Assembly: GCF_002775205.1 (NCBI RefSeq) | Contig: NC_036460.1 | Span: forward strand, 2,238,056 to 2,302,055 | Length of the DNA stretch: 64,000 bases | Reading direction: 5' to 3' | Source: Xiphophorus maculatus | Taxonomy: Eukaryota > Chordata > Actinopteri > Cyprinodontiformes > Poeciliidae | Position numbers and translations under genes: made by a program | The notes under the pieces: generated by a model | Databases searched by the model: none | Told to the model about the DNA's origin: nothing | The model's input: the letters and a program-made list of their open reading frames with translations, nothing else | Part shown: piece by piece, positions 22,339 through 37,400 of the stretch | Layout of the letters: each line of letters begins with the position of its first letter | How positions within the stretch are numbered: the stretch's first letter is position 1

Positions 22339-25300
22339 ATGTGGCTGATTTTCACGGCTCTTCTGGCCGCCTCGTTAAACCCACACAGCCAGGCTTCGGT
22401 GACTTTTGCTTCCACCTGCTGGGTCAAAGGTCAACCAGCCGAAGAGCTGATTTTACTCTGCGGTGATGGAGAACATGGAGGTGAAGAAGACTCTTGAAAA
22501 GCGGTGTTGTTAAATGTTTCTACCGGTTTCTGAAGGTCGCGTTGTCATTTTTTCCAGAGGAATGTTTTTTACTGAGCCATTTAACTCTGAGCTGTGAATC
22601 ACCAGGCATAAAACGGCAATAAAAATATTTCAGCTGCTTTTTCCTATTTAATTCACAGAAATGTTGAAAAATATACAGATAAATATATGTTAGATGATTA
22701 TCAATAACTCTGCTGCCTTTTCTGCAAAGAAATTGTGAAGAAGGTGAAGATGGGATCTGAACAGTAAGATGGTGCATTAAGACCATTGTAGATAAAAAAA
22801 AAAAAAAAAAACAGGTACATTTCCACCAAAAATCTCAGAAATTTTAAGATTAATCTCACATTTTCTGGAAAAAACAAGGAAACTTCTAAGTTCTAAAAGC
22901 TGAAAAAAAAATGTTAAAAATGTTTTTTAAAAAGGCAGAAATTTTTAGATTAATTTCAGACATTTCAGGACACAAATGTCCTCTTTAAATAACCGGTTAG
23001 AATAATCCTGTCCAGGTTTGGTTTTACAATAAACTGTTTTATATTATTATTTGTGGTCATTTATAAGCGATTCTGGTCCACCATCCGGCGTCTCAGGGGG
23101 GGGAAGCAGTACGGCACCAACACTGTTTATAGTGGGGATGGTGTACGGGAGATCGACAGGCGGATTGGCGCAGCGTCTGCTGTCAAGCGGGCGCTGTACC
23201 GGTCCGTCGTGGTGAAGAGAGAGCTGAGCCAAAAAGCGAAGCTCTCGATTTACCAGTCGATCTACGTTCCCACCCTCATCTATGGTCATGAGCTTTGGGT
23301 CATGACCGAAAGAACGAGATCGCGGATACAAGCGGCCGAAATGGGTTTTCTCCGTAGGGTGGCTGGGCTCTCCCTTAGAGATAGGGTGAGAAGCTCAGTC
23401 ATCCGGGAGGGACTCAGAGTAGAGCCGCTGCTCCTTCACATCGAGAGGAGCCAGTTGAGGTGGCTCGGGCATCTGGTCAGGATGCCTCCTGGACGCCTCC
23501 CTGGTGAGGTGTTCCGGGCACGTCCCACCGGGAGGAGGCCCTGGGGAAGACCCAGGACACGCTGGAGGGACTATGTCTCTCGGCTGGCCTGGGAACGCCT
23601 CGGGATTCCCCCGGAGGAGCTAGAAGAAGTGGCCGGGGAGAGGGAAGTCTGGGCCTCCCTTCTGAAGCTGCTACCCCCGCGACCCGACCTCGGATAAGTG
23701 GAAGAAGATGGATGGATGGATGGATGGATGGATGGATGGATGGATGGATGGATGGATGGATGGATGGATGGATGGATGGATGGATGGATGGATGGATGGG
23801 TCATTTATCCAGTGTTGTAACTACTACAGCTGTTGTTTCCATCTTCAACATTATGGCGGATAGAGATTTTATTTGAAGATGTGAACTTTTAAAACTCTTC
23901 ATGTGCATTTCCATGTGTGTTTTTAGGTGTGGTCCAGTTCTGGCACACGCCGTTCGGTGACCTTCAGAGCTCTGGTTCCCAGTCCAAACTGGACCCAGTG
24001 TTTATGCACCACGATGGGAGCCTCGTTATCCCAAACTCCAGCATCCACCATGGTGGGCTGTACTACTGCATCCTGCGGCACGCGGAGGGATCCACGCTGT
24101 GGCCCTTCGAGCTTCATGTGGACCAGAACATGGCGGCTGAGGCTGAGGATGGGCGTGGCGGTGGCGGTGGCGGTGGCGGCGGCGGCTGTGCTGCACGCCG
24201 GTTCAGGAGGAACGCAGCTTTTCTAGGCGAGAGGGAAGCTGTGATTCCGGATGAGATTTTTGCAGGAGCTGTGGCTGCATCGGTGCTCCTGACGTTTGTG
24301 GTGGGATTCAGCGCTGGAGCTCTGTCACGGACTCCTGTCCTCAGGTGGGTGATGAAGTTTAATCGGTATGACAATCCCACACTACAAAAAATACATCTCT
24401 ACTGGATAAGGACTTGATTAAAGGACAGAAGTTGAGTTGAAATCTGCATACTGTGTAGAAAAAACTAAAGAAAGAACCAGATGCTGCTAATGAAGGTATT
24501 TGAATTAACTTCACTGCAAAAACACCAAATCTTACCAAGTATTTTAGTTTGTGGTGAAATATTTTAGTACACTTGAAATAGGACAAAACTAACTTAACAC
24601 TAACTTTTCATGAGCTTGTTTTAAGTCAACTAATCCTTTATATTGATAAAAAATCCAAATTCCATTGGCAGATTATTTAACTTATTGGACATTTTTTCCA
24701 TGTTATGCATACTACTGTAAGCTGCACAAAGAACAATAAAGCTGAACTGAGTAAATGTAAGTAGGGCCAGAACTTTAACATTTTGATTTTGATACAATAA
24801 AGCTTTTAACGCAATTAACCGCATTTTGTTGTTACATATGGGGTTTCAACCGGAACCTTTTTATTCGAGCGTTTCCGGTAGGTCTGTATATTTGATGCAC
24901 CAGTGACATCCCCAACAGCAGCAATGGATTATTTTGACCCAGTTAAGTTTTGCTTCAAAAAGCGATCTGGAAAAGAAAAGATTATTATTCCGTTCAAGTT
25001 CTGCTAAAAGGAGTTAGCCTAACAACAAAGCCATTCAAGGCTAAAGTAGCATCTCAATGCTAACAGGATGCAGCAGCACAGACATGTTCAAGCTAATGTC
25101 AGCATCCACAGTCCAAATAGAAAATAACTTTGCACCAACCGAATGGTTGGATACCAGATTAAAAACAAAAAATATGTTGGGTTTTTTTTAGCTTATTTGT
25201 CTGTTCATTCAATAATTTAGCATCAGGTGTCTCTGAATTGGAAATGTTACTTGTTCCATTAATATATGGCGTTACAGACGCTGCAATTAATCGAATCTCA

Positions 25301-30800: not shown

Positions 30801-32261
30801 CAGATGCCAACCAGAACCAAACCGGTGAATAAAAAGCACCTACTGTAGTACTGTCATCCCACTGAGCCACTCGTCTTTCGTGAAGTATCCCATCTTTGAC
30901 GCTCCTAGATGCCACGCCAAAACCAACATTATAATCTGGAAGGAAGGTGAACGGAGACACAGATGATCCAGCTGTTTTTGGTAAGCAGGATCCACGTCGG
31001 ACAGCCGGACTCACATTCTCTGGTTCCACTCCGATATCGTCACAGAACTTCTCCATGGCTTCCGGGCCGACCATCTTTTCAGGGCCGGCGTACTTGTGGA
31101 ACCAAGCCAGGCACTTTTTACTGGAAAACTGCCTTTCAGCGCCATTTGGCTTCACACCACGGACCTGAGGACGAGGAAAGCTACGACACCCAAAACAAAT
31201 TAAAACCTCACTGTGCTGTCCTCGCCCTGAGGTTTCCAGTTTTCAGCAGCTAGACAGCCAGACAACGACGCTCCAATAACCAAACTTGTTTCTTTTCTAC
31301 TTGTTTATTGAAGAGTGGCCTCTGACCACTGCCATCACTTTGGCCATCATAAACTGAAACATACAAACTGAGTATTAGCCAACGAACATAGCAAATTAGC
31401 TATTCTAGCTGCTAGCTAAAAATAAAAACTTTTCCTAACTGATTCCAGCGTACAATTATTTACGCCAGTTACATAAAACAAAGAGACAATTATTGCTTTT
31501 ACAATTAACCAACACTTACGAACAAATCTTGTCTGAAACACAACGTATTAGGATGATAATCAACTTAAATCGTGAGCTGTTCGGTGACGCGTTCCACCAT
31601 CTTGGATTTTTATTCTTTTTTAGCGTCATCAAAACAAAACAAAATATCCACCAGGGGGCGTTCTAGTGCGGTTTTCAACCTTGCTGGTCTAGCTTAACTT
31701 ACAAAAGGCAGCACACTCACTAAAAAGGTCATTGTATTAATGTAGCACATTTTCAGCAACAAGGCAGTTCAATGGGGCTTCACATGAATCAGAAGGACAT
31801 GCAAACAAAACAACAAAACCAAAAGAAAGACAAGAAGGTAAAAGTACAAGACTAAATATCGGCTCCCCATGTTGAATAAGAAAAGGTAGTCGATATTTTA
31901 TAAAGTAGTAGGAGTTTCTCTGGATCTGAAGTTTGCTTGTTTTATTGCATTTAGCTTTATATAAAGCTAAATGTTGGTTTTCCATGTTTGATTCTTATTC
32001 TGAATAACTATGTAAACCAAAAGGAGTTTTTCTTGCTCCAACATTAAGTATGAAACTAAATGCTGGTTCCAGTGATGATAAACTCTTTATTTGATTAATT
32101 CAGTGAGATTTTCCACCATTATTTCCAAGAACGGCAGGAAAGGAAAGGCATAAAAAAAGATTTCTAAATTCAGACATTATGGGAAATAAATCTTACCTGG
32201 TAATTTTACACTTGTGCCCGTGATCTTCAGAGTCGGGTAGTTTCCTCTTCTTCACAGGCAT
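27830..32261 (-). CDS. dcun1d5: DCN1-like protein 5 (cullin neddylation co-E3), 254 aa from the conventional start
   Basis: Scaffold-type E3 that brings NEDD8-charged UBE2M/UBE2F to cullin-RBX and stimulates neddylation, in nucleus and cytoplasm. Exons in gene order: 32261-32197 (from ATG), 31180-31015, 30935-30844, 30768-30660, 29335-29231, 28941-28839, 27954-27830. All phases join. The start [10 protein letters not shown] matches the basic leader of DCUN1D5. [20 protein letters not shown] opens the PONY/DCUN1 domain, and [15 protein letters not shown] and [18 protein letters not shown] form the cullin-binding C-terminal part. CDCTERLQ and [13 protein letters not shown] favour paralogue 5 over 4. 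The C-terminus runs about 24 residues past the usual end (after EFVEWQK), rich in Arg/Lys/Thr, so it is longer than the 237 aa human protein. Two upstream in-frame exons are listed separately. cul5 lies next upstream on the same strand. Confidence 0.92.
31514..31605 (-). promoter_or_regulatory. Possible internal dcun1d5 promoter and alternative first exon
   Basis: On the minus strand ccaagatggtgg (31605-31594) matches the YY1-type initiator AAGATGG, CpGs follow (gaacgcgtcaccg), and 85 bp later there is a strong donor gttc/gtaagt (exon end 31520). Spliced to the exon at 31180 this would give a transcript without the N-terminal leader; the first in-frame Met would be in [10 protein letters not shown]. 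This is inference from motifs only. Confidence 0.35.
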
Positions 32262-32746
32262 TATGGAACCTTTATTGGGCTTTACTAGCTGAGCTGCACA
32301 GAACAAAACAAAGAAAGTTTGGAAAAACAACCGATTAGATGATTGTTCCAGAAAATTCAAGGTGAATCTCAAATATTTTGAACACAAAGTCTGCAGGGCT
32401 TTCAAATTACAACTCTCCAACTTAATATCCTAAAAAGTCTTCCATGTGTGCAGATTTTACAAATTATGTTATGTTACAACTTAATCTAAAATGTACTTAA
32501 GTTTAAGTCATGCATTTTCAAATAATGAACCATCCTTGACCGTAAGATGTTATATTTTGGTTTTATGTTGGTTAGTGCTTTTATAGTCATTCTGTAAATA
32601 AAATTAATAATATTAGTGATCAATGACTCAATAAAATTACAGTTCTATATTTAGTATTCAAAGGATCACCTGAAAAACTAGCATGAAGCTCAACAAGCGA
32701 TCAATTAATCAATACTTTATCAATAAATCTTTTATCTAGCCCTTAC

Positions 32747-32957
32747 CTGTAAACTTCTGGCTGGTTTGTCCATTCAAATCAACAAGATTCTGAAGTTAAA
32801 AAAGTATAAATTTACTGTGAAAACCTTCAAAATTCAGAATATGAATAGATTAAAAGGCTAAACTTTATTTTGTAGAAACAAAACTGACTTACAAGCTGAT
32901 CCAGCGTTTCTGAAATGTAACTGATGTCTGCCAGACCGCACAAGTCGACCCGATGAT
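32747..32957 (-). CDS. dcun1d5: Probable extra N-terminal dcun1d5 exons, DCUN1D4-like
   Basis: Two minus-strand exons with clean splice sites, 32957-32893 (acceptor ..gacag, donor gtaagt) and 32789-32747 (acceptor ..ttcag, donor gtaagg), join in phase to an extended form of the next exon (32293-32197) and read through into MPVKKRKL without a stop. The added peptide is HRVDLCGLADISYISETLDQ, L, NLVDLNGQTSQKFT, then AQLVKPNKGSI before the usual Met. Human DCUN1D4 has a similar N-terminal segment (L..LA.I..I..TL..LNL....GQ, recalled) before its own basic leader. The first coding exon with the true start was not found; it should end in phase 1 and lie between 32960 and about 35700. A donor (gacaca/gtgagtg) ends near 35602 in what looks like a 5' UTR exon. 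Confidence 0.6.
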
Positions 32958-33074
32958 CTGTCACACAAACCAGCAAAACTTTACTGGCATCGAAAACACT
33001 AAAAAATAAAATAAAACTAGAACTGCAAGCAGCTGTCATGGGTTCCTTGCCCGATCCAGCAGATTTTAATACGA

Positions 33075-33463: not shown

Positions 33464-33771
33464 CCAATCAGAGCCATCATTAATCAGCTAGCCAATCAGA
33501 GCCAGCATTAATCAGCTAGCCAATCGGAGCCAGCATTAATCAGCTAGCCAATCGGAGCCAGCATTAATCAGCTAGCCAATCGGAGCCAGCATTAATCAGC
33601 TAGCCAATCGGAGCCAGTATTAATCAGCTAGCCAATCAGAGCCAGTATTAATCAGCTAGCCAATCAGAGCCAGTATTAATCAGCTAGCCAATCAGAGCCA
33701 GTATTAATCAGCTAGCCAATCAGAGCCAGTATTAATCAGCTAGCCAATCAGAGCCAGTATTAATCAGCTAG
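33464..33771. repeat. 28-bp minisatellite, 11 units
   Basis: Eleven exact-length units of ccaatcagagccagtattaa + tcagctag. Variants are ordered along the array: unit 1 ends its variable part in catc, unit 2 has caga/gca, units 3-5 cgga/gca, unit 6 cgga/gta, units 7-11 caga/gta. It lies upstream of the known dcun1d5 exons. Confidence 0.95.
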
Positions 33772-34406
33772 CCGTGCTCTCAGGAAGTTTTGATTAATAA
33801 CTAGATTGTTTATTTTGAAGCAACATGCAATTGACTTTGAATGACTGTCAAATTTTTTCTTGACATTATTTGACATTAATTGATCATTTATAATTTAGAG
33901 AACTGACAGCCTTACTGTTAAATATTTTACTGATTTCAGGTTTTTCAGTCATCCTTTTGACTGAATAGCTGCTGCATTGGGCCTGCAAGTATTTTTGCAT
34001 GTTTTATGTCTAAATTAGGTGAATTTATTGCCAGATAATTTTTCCATTTCGCCAGATAACATAGTACCATTTACACCTAAAGCAAAAAATTGGCAGCCAT
34101 TCCAGGTGATCAGCAGAGATCGGCCTCATGGATGATCAGAAAACCTGATATGAGAATCCCTATTATTATTCAATATTACAAATACATTAAAAATGCAATT
34201 TTTTTTAAATAACACATTTTAATGTCTAATACGCAATAACATTGCTTTCCTTAAGTGAACGCTTTATTTTTGTGACAAAGGATGAATTTGCAGCTAAAAA
34301 GAAAAATACTTTAAACATCAACATGTGAAAAGCTTAATTTTACATCAATAGTGTAGGGCTAATCTGTTGATTATTGTTTTAATAAACTGATTAATAATTG
34401 AATAGG

Positions 34407-34409
<3 letters not shown>

Positions 34410-34470
<61 letters not shown>
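34410..34470. repeat. (TA)n microsatellite
   Basis: About 30 uninterrupted TA dinucleotides flanked by A-rich sequence; potential cruciform or replication slippage site. Confidence 0.95.
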
Positions 34471-34475
<5 letters not shown>

Positions 34476-37400
34476 TTTATTTAAAAAAAATTTTTACAGA
34501 ATTTTAACCAGGTATGCCGCTAGAGGAGTTCTGGGTAGAACATATTTACAATCACAATTCATTGCTTCAGCCCTAATTATTGGTATTTAATACCATAATT
34601 TTGCATATAATCTTAGATTTTTCTCTAATTAGTAACTCTACGCTTGCATAGCCTTTTTAAATGAATACTTTTGTACTCTTACTAACCTTTTACTCTTAAT
34701 TTCACGGACTCCTACTTTTTATTTTTGTGTAAAATATGTTGAAGTATCGCTACTCTTAATTGAGTATCATATTTAGGTACTCTGCTCACTTCTAATCATT
34801 ATTTCATTAGAAACAGCAGAAGCTTTATCGCTGTTCTGCTCATTAATGCCTCTAAGCTGCATTGAAGCAGGTTGATTCAGGTCGCATCACCATCTGTCAT
34901 CACAAATACAGTAACAGCGAACAAGAACTGCGTCACAAGCTGGATCCCCCCTCCAGAACCGTGTCCAGACTTGAAGCTGGTTCGGAAAAGATTTCACACA
35001 CGCCAACCGACAAAAACGAAATCATGTTACTCAAAGCAAAGCACGACAGATTAAAATCAAATCTGTGTCTGTGAAACAGTTTCAAACGTCAAAACAAATA
35101 CGTGTTTGTTAACGTTGAGCCGAAAACGTAACCTAAAACGATGCCTATGGCAAACCTGAATACTTCTACGTCACATAAACAGCCACTTTTGTTAATAGTT
35201 TTCTTAATTTGAATTGTTTGAACGTTAAGGTTTCAACGTTTAATCAAATACGACAGTTAATGCTAACGTTAGCAGCAGCAAATTAGCCAGTCACGGCGGC
35301 TAATACCCAGAATTTCACACCAAATGCTGTCTGAAAATAGTCAGTCAAAGTCTTTTAAAGTTAAATAATATCACACATAAAAAGGCATGCTAAAACCTAA
35401 CAATGTAATGAATATTTTTGACGGTAAGCGCTTCTCTTTTGTTAGCAAGCTAACGCTAACAGCACACAGCGGGTTGCAGAGCTGCTTTAGTGACGTTGGT
35501 TATTAACAGACACTTCATAAAGTATAATATTTTAGACTTTAACGATGTTGAAGAATTACTCATAAATAGTTATTCAAGTTTATAATTCGTGTTGAAACAC
35601 TCACTGTGTCCAGCTTCACACTGCCTGACTAATTAATTCCACCTGCTTGCCACACTGTGCTGAGGCTTCAGCTGTACCGGCGTTTCTTGGGAGAGGGCGA
35701 TACCATCACTGAGCGGGGGAGACAGACAAAAACCTTCTGATCACCGGATTAAACCACCAGGAAGTAGCTGATTTTATTGGTTGTGTTTGGAGATATAACC
35801 TCTAGTAGATAATAAATACTAAAAACATAAAATAATATAGCAGCAAATAATGTGGAAAAAAACACATGTACCCTACGTAGCAGAAGAAGTGGAATCTTCC
35901 ATTAGTTTCTTAAAGGGGCCGTCCTCATTTTTGGCACAAGTGTTAGGAAAACCTTCACACGTTCATTAATGGAACCAAAATACCAGTTCTTAATCATTAT
36001 CGATTCTTTGCATGGTAAATACGAACGATTACTGTGATATCCAGCTACAAAAGTAGCCAACTGACTAAAGTTACAGCTTTACCTGATAACAATTTAATTT
36101 TTCTGCATAGCATAAATTACATAAAAAGAGTAACCCATCAAGTAGAGGTTGTAAAGCACAATTATGCAACTAATTTACTGAGATTCAAGTCTAATTATGA
36201 GAATAAAAGTAATCAATTACACTTTAAACCAATTTTGAGGTTTGAAGTAATAATTGAAAGAATAAAGGTAATAAATTTCAAGATTTAAAGTCATAATTAC
36301 AGAAATAAAAGTCAGAATTTCAAGTGAATTTTTTGAGTTTTAGTCATAATTAGAAAAATAAAAGTTGCAATTTTAATCAATTTAAAATTAAAGTATTAAA
36401 ATAGTTGTAATTTAAGTCTGAGCAGGAATTACATATAAAACTTAGAATTGAAACTTTTATTTTCACAATTAAGACTTCCTGTTGCAACTTTTATTTATTT
36501 TTTATTTCACAGCAGAAATTGTCTTCTATAAGTTGCTGACAGTTATTTAATGGTCATATATATTTTTAAAATGTTGCAACATTTTTACCCCTACTTATTA
36601 AATATTTGTAACATCTTCTGCTAGAATGTAAAAAATTACACATTTAATCGTTTAAATCTCCAGAAAGATGTTTTTTTCTTGAACTGAGTAATCTACTATA
36701 CTTCTCCCCCAGGAAAACACAAAATCTACAATTACTAAAGTTTTTTCAGAATTAAAGCACACTTGACTATTTGAAGTAACTTTTAGAAACTTCAGCAGTT
36801 TTAGTTAAACATAGTACCAATTTTTTAACTTATGAGGATTATTACCCATGCAGAATGACATTTTCTCTCATCTTTCCCATTTTGAGGAGTGCCTACAAGA
36901 AATAGCCCTCTGTTATATCATGCTTAAGGTCAAAAACGTTTTTATTTTTTTTTACTGTGACAGAAAAGGTCCCATTGTAAAAAGTAGATTTAATCAAATT
37001 AAATACCAAAATAAAACCCATTTTTGAAAAACCTAGTTTGTAAGGAAAGCGCTTTAAAAATAAAAACTACATTTTAAAGTTTAGTTTCGGTATGAGATAT
37101 CTAGTTGCAGTGAGATATTCAATCAGCAGGTCATTTAATCTCCACAAAGAATGAAATTATTGTCTTTAATATCAATCTTGGTCATGCACTTTATTTCCTG
37201 CACTGATGTTAATAACTCGAATGAAGAAAACAATTAAAATTGTTATTGTTTCTATGAGTTTATAGCTGAATGTATAAATTAACTCGACTCACATCACAAA
37301 GAAAGGGAAAAGACATCAACACAGATGTTTTAGAAGGACTTTATATGAAAGCAATATGAGCACAGAATAGATCCATGTAAGGAAACGAAGAGCCCTCCTG

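Follow-up and report, generated by a model that had tools for sequence, protein, structure and literature searches.

The question raised by this locus is whether the coding sequence of dcun1d5 in Xiphophorus maculatus begins at the usual start MPVKKRKL, or whether exons lying upstream of that start supply, or once supplied, an N-terminal extension resembling that of the paralogue DCUN1D4. The window, i.e. the whole stretch of 64,000 nucleotides that was analysed, carries the gene on the minus strand of contig C18, with exons placed at 32957-27830. The explanation that we favour, and regard as rather probable from the exon structure and the peptide comparison, is that dcun1d5 has retained an extension that probably still codes, so that two proteins, one long and one short, would be made.

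The dcun1d5 gene, its upstream exons and its surroundings

The joined frame of 300 residues contains a Cullin_binding / PONY domain (PF03556), scoring 114.5 bits where the cut-off is 27.9, which identifies the product as a DCN1-like protein, and its best match in the PDB is human DCN1-like protein 4 (5v89). At 40 sites that differ between human DCUN1D4 and DCUN1D5 the window gene is DCUN1D5-like at 19 and DCUN1D4-like at nine, whereas dcun1d4 of this genome, which lies on contig C9, is DCUN1D5-like at four and DCUN1D4-like at 29; this typing by residues compared human DCUN1D4 as in 5v89, human DCUN1D5 and the C9 gene as pieced together by eye. Over 188 residues the window gene shares 147 with DCUN1D5 and 137 with DCUN1D4. 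These residues type it as dcun1d5 rather than a further copy of dcun1d4, by a modest margin.

Three exons on the minus strand, all bordered by AG and GT, make up the 5' part of the gene as placed here: exon A (32957-32893, 65 nt), exon B (32789-32747, 43 nt) and exon C (32293-32197, 97 nt). Exon A starts in phase 1, its first complete codons following an incomplete (x)AT, and ends in phase 0 after HRVDLCGLADISYISETLDQL; exon B runs from phase 0 to phase 1 and encodes NLVDLNGQTSQKFT plus a G, which together with the first two bases of exon C, CT, specifies an alanine across the junction. The joined peptide accordingly reads HRVDLCGLADISYISETLDQL, then NLVDLNGQTSQKFT(A), then the peptide of exon C, in which QLVKPNKGSI is followed by the MPVKK leader (ATG at 32259..32261, minus, with A at -3 and C at +4) and which ends in phase 2. 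Forty-six codons free of stops thus precede MPVKKRKL. The first-pass annotation had given the coordinates and borders of these exons, as well as their in-phase joining, exactly.

From exon C the frame continues into exon D (31015..31180, minus), which starts cgtag/CTTTCC. Its start was placed at 31180; with the alternative AG, which precedes 31164, the frame would meet a stop no more than five codons after exon C ends. Exons E to I (30935-30844, 30768-30660, 29335-29231, 28941-28839 and 27954-27830, minus) encode the remainder of the PONY domain and the stop, and the frame is open to that stop through all nine exons.

The splice borders of the upstream exons are gtgacag/../gtaagt for A, aacttcag/../gtaagg for B and ctgtgcag/../gtaaga for C, with donors of 7.5, 11.6 and 11.3 bits, respectively, according to an approximate donor matrix. 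Pyrimidines occupy 11/21 of the positions -24 to -4 before exon A, 14/21 before B, 17/21 before C and 13/21 before D, and the acceptor of exon A is the weakest among these four. The GC content of exons A and B (0.49 and 0.37) may be set against 0.24 and 0.29 for the introns that follow them. Together, A and B measure 108 nt, a multiple of three.

Upstream of dcun1d5, at about 40.5-52 kb, a cullin gene with a Cullin_Nedd8 domain in its last exon lies on the minus strand as well, and we take it to be cul5; a cullin gene and the gene of a cullin-neddylation factor are thus neighbours on one strand. In human, CUL5 and DCUN1D5 are both located on 11q22. Elsewhere in the window a long open frame on the plus strand (22993-23697), which looks like the terminal part of a LINE reverse transcriptase ORF, is followed by a ATGGATGG-type repeat.

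Comparison with dcun1d4 of the same genome

The resemblance of the extension to the N-terminus of DCUN1D4 had been proposed before; the present comparison uses dcun1d4 of the same genome. When human DCUN1D4 was searched against this genome, five places matched: one is the window gene, and the other four lie on C9, among them an exon equivalent to DCUN1D4 residues 8-32. The C9 gene opens with a coding exon of only 19 coding bases (23374086-23374068), an ATG plus 16 bases that encode MHSDAA plus an A, followed by coding exons 2 (23372809-23372739, 71 nt), 3 (23372627-23372588, 40 nt) and 4 (23371851-23371764). Their borders correspond to those of A, B and C: exon A and dcun1d4 exon 2 each start with AT in phase 1 and finish in phase 0, exon B and dcun1d4 exon 3 each open with AAT and close with a G, and exon C and dcun1d4 exon 4 each open with CT, completing an alanine across the junction, and close with AG. 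The sizes of the first two pairs differ slightly (65 and 43 nt in dcun1d5, 71 and 40 nt in dcun1d4). What pairs exon C with dcun1d4 exon 4 is its border, its phase and the basic leader that it encodes; beyond the common border, its head (AQLVKPNKGSI) has no evident likeness to that exon.

In a gap-free alignment extended to both sides of the A/B junction, A and B share 12 of 34 residues with dcun1d4, and seven of these 12 are encoded by different codons. The score of this splice-anchored alignment was equalled in none of 100,000 codon shuffles. Among 20,000 residue shuffles, 14 scored as high as an unanchored local alignment with the N-terminus of the C9 gene, and 2 of 5,000 reach the score obtained with the human DCUN1D4 N-terminus. 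The paralogues differ at 55 of the 102 bases; when the same number of differences was scattered at random, the stretch stayed both free of stops and as similar in protein in only 154 of 20,000 cases. Freedom from stops by itself was retained in 5,860 of 20,000 copies of the 34-codon stretch with randomly placed differences, and an open frame of such length is by itself not strong evidence. The shared residues concentrate in a core, LA-I--I--TL--LNL, outside of which similarity is low; in dcun1d5 the common segment is LADISYISETLDQL/NL (32893..32934, minus, plus the first residues of exon B). The proposed likeness to DCUN1D4 is therefore borne out for exons A and B.

Unspliced searches do not recover this similarity. 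With the human DCUN1D4 N-terminus as query, exons A and B were absent from the 12 best pieces in a six-frame tblastn of the window and from the eight best of 3,486 stop-to-stop stretches, and we discarded the genomic tblastn as evidence, A and B not being among the best pieces listed. Exons so short are indistinguishable from noise in a genomic scan, and only a spliced, exon-anchored comparison reveals them. The 68 residues of extension and leader, used as a query against the PDB, returned noise only (best E 0.57), a search of the genome for retrocopies of the joined exons A-D found the gene itself alone, in four pieces, and viral and prokaryote contig collections yielded no stray eukaryotic relative.

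The matching exon phases and the likeness of the A and B peptides lead us to conclude that A, B and C derive from the gene ancestral to both DCUN1D4 and DCUN1D5, a conclusion that is well supported by the exon structure, to which A and B add the evidence of their sequence. The three exons would thus be the dcun1d5 copies of dcun1d4 coding exons 2-4, inherited from a single ancestral gene, in agreement with the earlier suggestion that the extension predates the duplication. Mammals are reported to possess both DCUN1D4 and DCUN1D5 (PMC4886823); as both paralogues are present in this fish and in mammals, the duplication is older than the split between fish and mammals.

Start codons and the fate of the extension

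A point omitted by the first-pass annotation is that A, B and C, read in the joined frame, hold no in-frame ATG ahead of MPVKK. Here the paralogues differ: dcun1d4 begins at an ordinary ATG (MHSDAA) in its first coding exon, and no convincing dcun1d5 equivalent of that exon was found. A search for such an exon from 40400 to 32960 gave 19 ATG-to-donor candidates at a loose cut-off, none convincing. Three of them fall within 35.75-34.7 kb (MTD, MQLRGINEQNSDKASAVSNEIMIR and MIR); MQLRGINEQNSDKASAVSNEIMIR bears a faint likeness to the start of DCUN1D4 (..SD..A.AV.N..), which we judged by eye to be due to chance. Exon A extended upstream to an ATG at 33039 was rejected as well, the added peptide being the translated stretch before the acceptor. 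Given that dcun1d4 exon 1 has only 19 coding bases, a dcun1d5 equivalent could be of similar size and easily overlooked.

Over the stretch from 39.6 to 32 kb the CpG observed/expected ratio peaks at 35.6-34.9 kb (0.88-1.27), which suggests a promoter zone there; it is also high at 40.2-39.7 kb, near the end of the cullin gene. A sigma-70 scan of this presumed promoter was set aside, as it has no bearing on a gene from a fish. Among three donors listed from 35900 to 35400, ACA/gtgagt at 35605 scores best (6.4 bits); it is the border of a candidate non-coding first exon (35605..35760, minus; 5' end guessed). Read from this donor into exon A, nine open codons plus the junction codon extend back to a TAA, with no in-frame AUG among them. 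Should transcription start above 35706, the presumed exon 1 would include a 12-codon uORF (35706-35668, minus; G at -3 and at +4), and its basic peptide MVSPSPKKRRYS could be a uORF of dcun1d5. The presumed first intron, upstream of exon A, harbours a 28-base minisatellite (33464-33773, 11.1 copies, 98% match) and a perfect run of the dinucleotide AT (34410-34470, 30.5 copies).

A start other than AUG is conceivable within exon A itself. The in-frame CTG at 32934-32932 (minus; G at -3 and at +4) lies directly ahead of the conserved ADI..I..TL..LNL and is, from its position and context, a reasonable candidate, which would add 39 residues; in a second in-frame CTG, ten codons further in, positions -3 and +4 are A and G, respectively. 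Two features would hinder translation of a long form, namely the uORF of the presumed exon 1 and the out-of-frame ATG of exon B, whose frame (MDKPARSLQLS; spliced B-C, 32773-32285, minus) closes before MPVKK. Inclusion of exon B would therefore give the short form an added uORF.

On the reading that we favour, exons A and B and the head of C probably still code in this fish, as their retained frame and residues indicate. Inclusion of A and B combined with initiation upstream of MPVKK would lengthen DCUN1D5 by up to 46 residues, to which exon 1 might contribute more, whereas initiation at the MPVKK AUG, or skipping of A and B, would give the usual short protein. A living longer DCUN1D5 is predicted as likely, the missing start codon being the chief obstacle to accepting it. 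That the proteins starting at MPVKK are a shortened or alternative form, as had been proposed, is plausible as history and a prediction at the protein level.

The discrepancy between a preserved frame and a missing start codon can have other explanations. The main rival, which we consider possible though rather doubtful, is that A and B were coding in the ancestor and are still spliced, but have become 5' UTR after the loss of an upstream start, leaving the MPVKK protein as the only product. It would account for the lack of an in-frame AUG in A, B, C and the best candidate first exon, for the two out-of-frame upstream AUGs and for the A at -3 of the MPVKK AUG, and it is in keeping with a mammalian DCUN1D5 whose leader is placed in exon 1 (PMC4886823). 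However, 46 codons remain open, and residues shared with DCUN1D4 persist despite changes in their codons. Exons left untranslated since the time of a duplication that predates the fish-mammal split should have drifted, unless, as is conceivable, the loss occurred recently in this fish lineage.

Alternatively, A and B may be fossil exons that are no longer spliced, with transcription beginning just upstream of C, or exon 1 joining C, so that both would be intronic. The weak acceptor of exon A (11/21 pyrimidines) and the fact that skipping a multiple of three costs nothing are compatible with this. A and B have nevertheless kept each of their four splice sites intact, with +5G donors, as would not be expected of unused exons, and we hold this possibility to be very unlikely. 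That A and B are pseudo-exons, in frame and DCUN1D4-like by accident, is scarcely credible: their rank in the genomic scan and the commonness of 34-codon open frames would allow it, but the border phases of A, B and C equal those of dcun1d4 and the anchored score was never reached by shuffling.

Mammalian relatives and the export-like segment

The mammalian DCUN1D5 (DCNL5), which starts at MPVKK, shares with the fish gene the PONY domain, the basic leader and the distinguishing residues. In contrast to the fish gene, its leader is described as exon 1, and no upstream coding exons are described in the available part of PMC4886823. A knock-out guide in that paper targets 'exon 1 in DCNL5' (PMC4886823). 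The guide sequence translates to AAVAEDG. We take this peptide to be part of the leader of human DCUN1D5. With its leader in exon 1, mammalian DCUN1D5 appears to be trimmed relative to the ancestor. An N-terminal exon module inherited by both DCUN1D4 and DCUN1D5 and kept in a fish DCUN1D5 likewise suggests that the human protein is the derived, trimmed one, and directs attention to a short segment, LA[DN]I..I..TL..LNL, conserved in both proteins.

A precedent for multiple forms exists in the sister protein, since forms of DCNL4 of 29, 34 and 38 kDa are predicted and their levels are reported to differ among mouse tissues (PMC4886823). The same source states that the five mammalian DCN-like proteins are told apart by their N-termini, the functions of which are largely unclear (PMC4886823). 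In those parts of the literature on fish dcun1d5, on the isoforms of DCUN1D4/5 and on initiation at codons other than AUG that were available, including PMC4886823 and PMC6025869, no account of the extension was found; gene-prediction databases may already list a transcript containing A and B.

Like the window gene, dcun1d4 combines exon phases e2/e3/e4 equal to those of A/B/C with the motif LA[DN]I..I..TL..LNL....G and a basic leader starting with MP. Within the common segment, ISYISETLDQLNL of dcun1d5 and IHKIHHTLHRLNL of dcun1d4 both show the spacing I-x2-I-x3-L-x2-L-x-L, in both cases ahead of the basic leader. This spacing fits the consensus of CRM1 nuclear-export signals. The hydrophobic spacing of leucine-rich export signals of the CRM1 type is thus alike in both paralogues, as a consensus match that shuffling of the extension also produced in 1,181 of 20,000 trials (about 6%); a looser pattern arises in 4,180 of 20,000. 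The hydrophobic moment of the dcun1d5 segment is ordinary in an amphipathic-helix test, 7,988 of 20,000 shuffles being as high. An export-like motif before an import motif in both paralogues is, on this showing, a weak functional lead.

Human DCNL4 presumably carries an equivalent of this segment. The protein was reported almost exclusively in the nucleus (PMC4886823), which speaks against an export function of the segment, as do the shuffles and the ordinary helical moment. Mutation of the basic leader of human DCNL5 is reported to cause leakage into the cytoplasm (PMC4886823). An export-like segment combined with a leader of this kind makes a switch of localisation between a long and a short form conceivable. 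The extension would place the export-like segment in front of the basic nuclear-import leader, and our guess as to its function is that it might tune the location or the partner of the NEDD8 co-ligase DCUN1D5. A bolder proposal, which we put forward as an unlikely one, is that fish make a second DCUN1D5 from the in-frame CUG of exon A, which has a strong context, or from an unrecognised first exon, that its ancestral export-like segment opposes the neighbouring import signal, that DCUN1D4 and DCUN1D5 share an old long/short switch setting nuclear versus cytoplasmic cullin neddylation, and that mammalian DCUN1D5 has lost the long half.

The fish and human proteins differ at their other end, too: the C-terminus of this fish dcun1d5 is the longer one, exon I running about two dozen residues beyond the end of human DCUN1D5.
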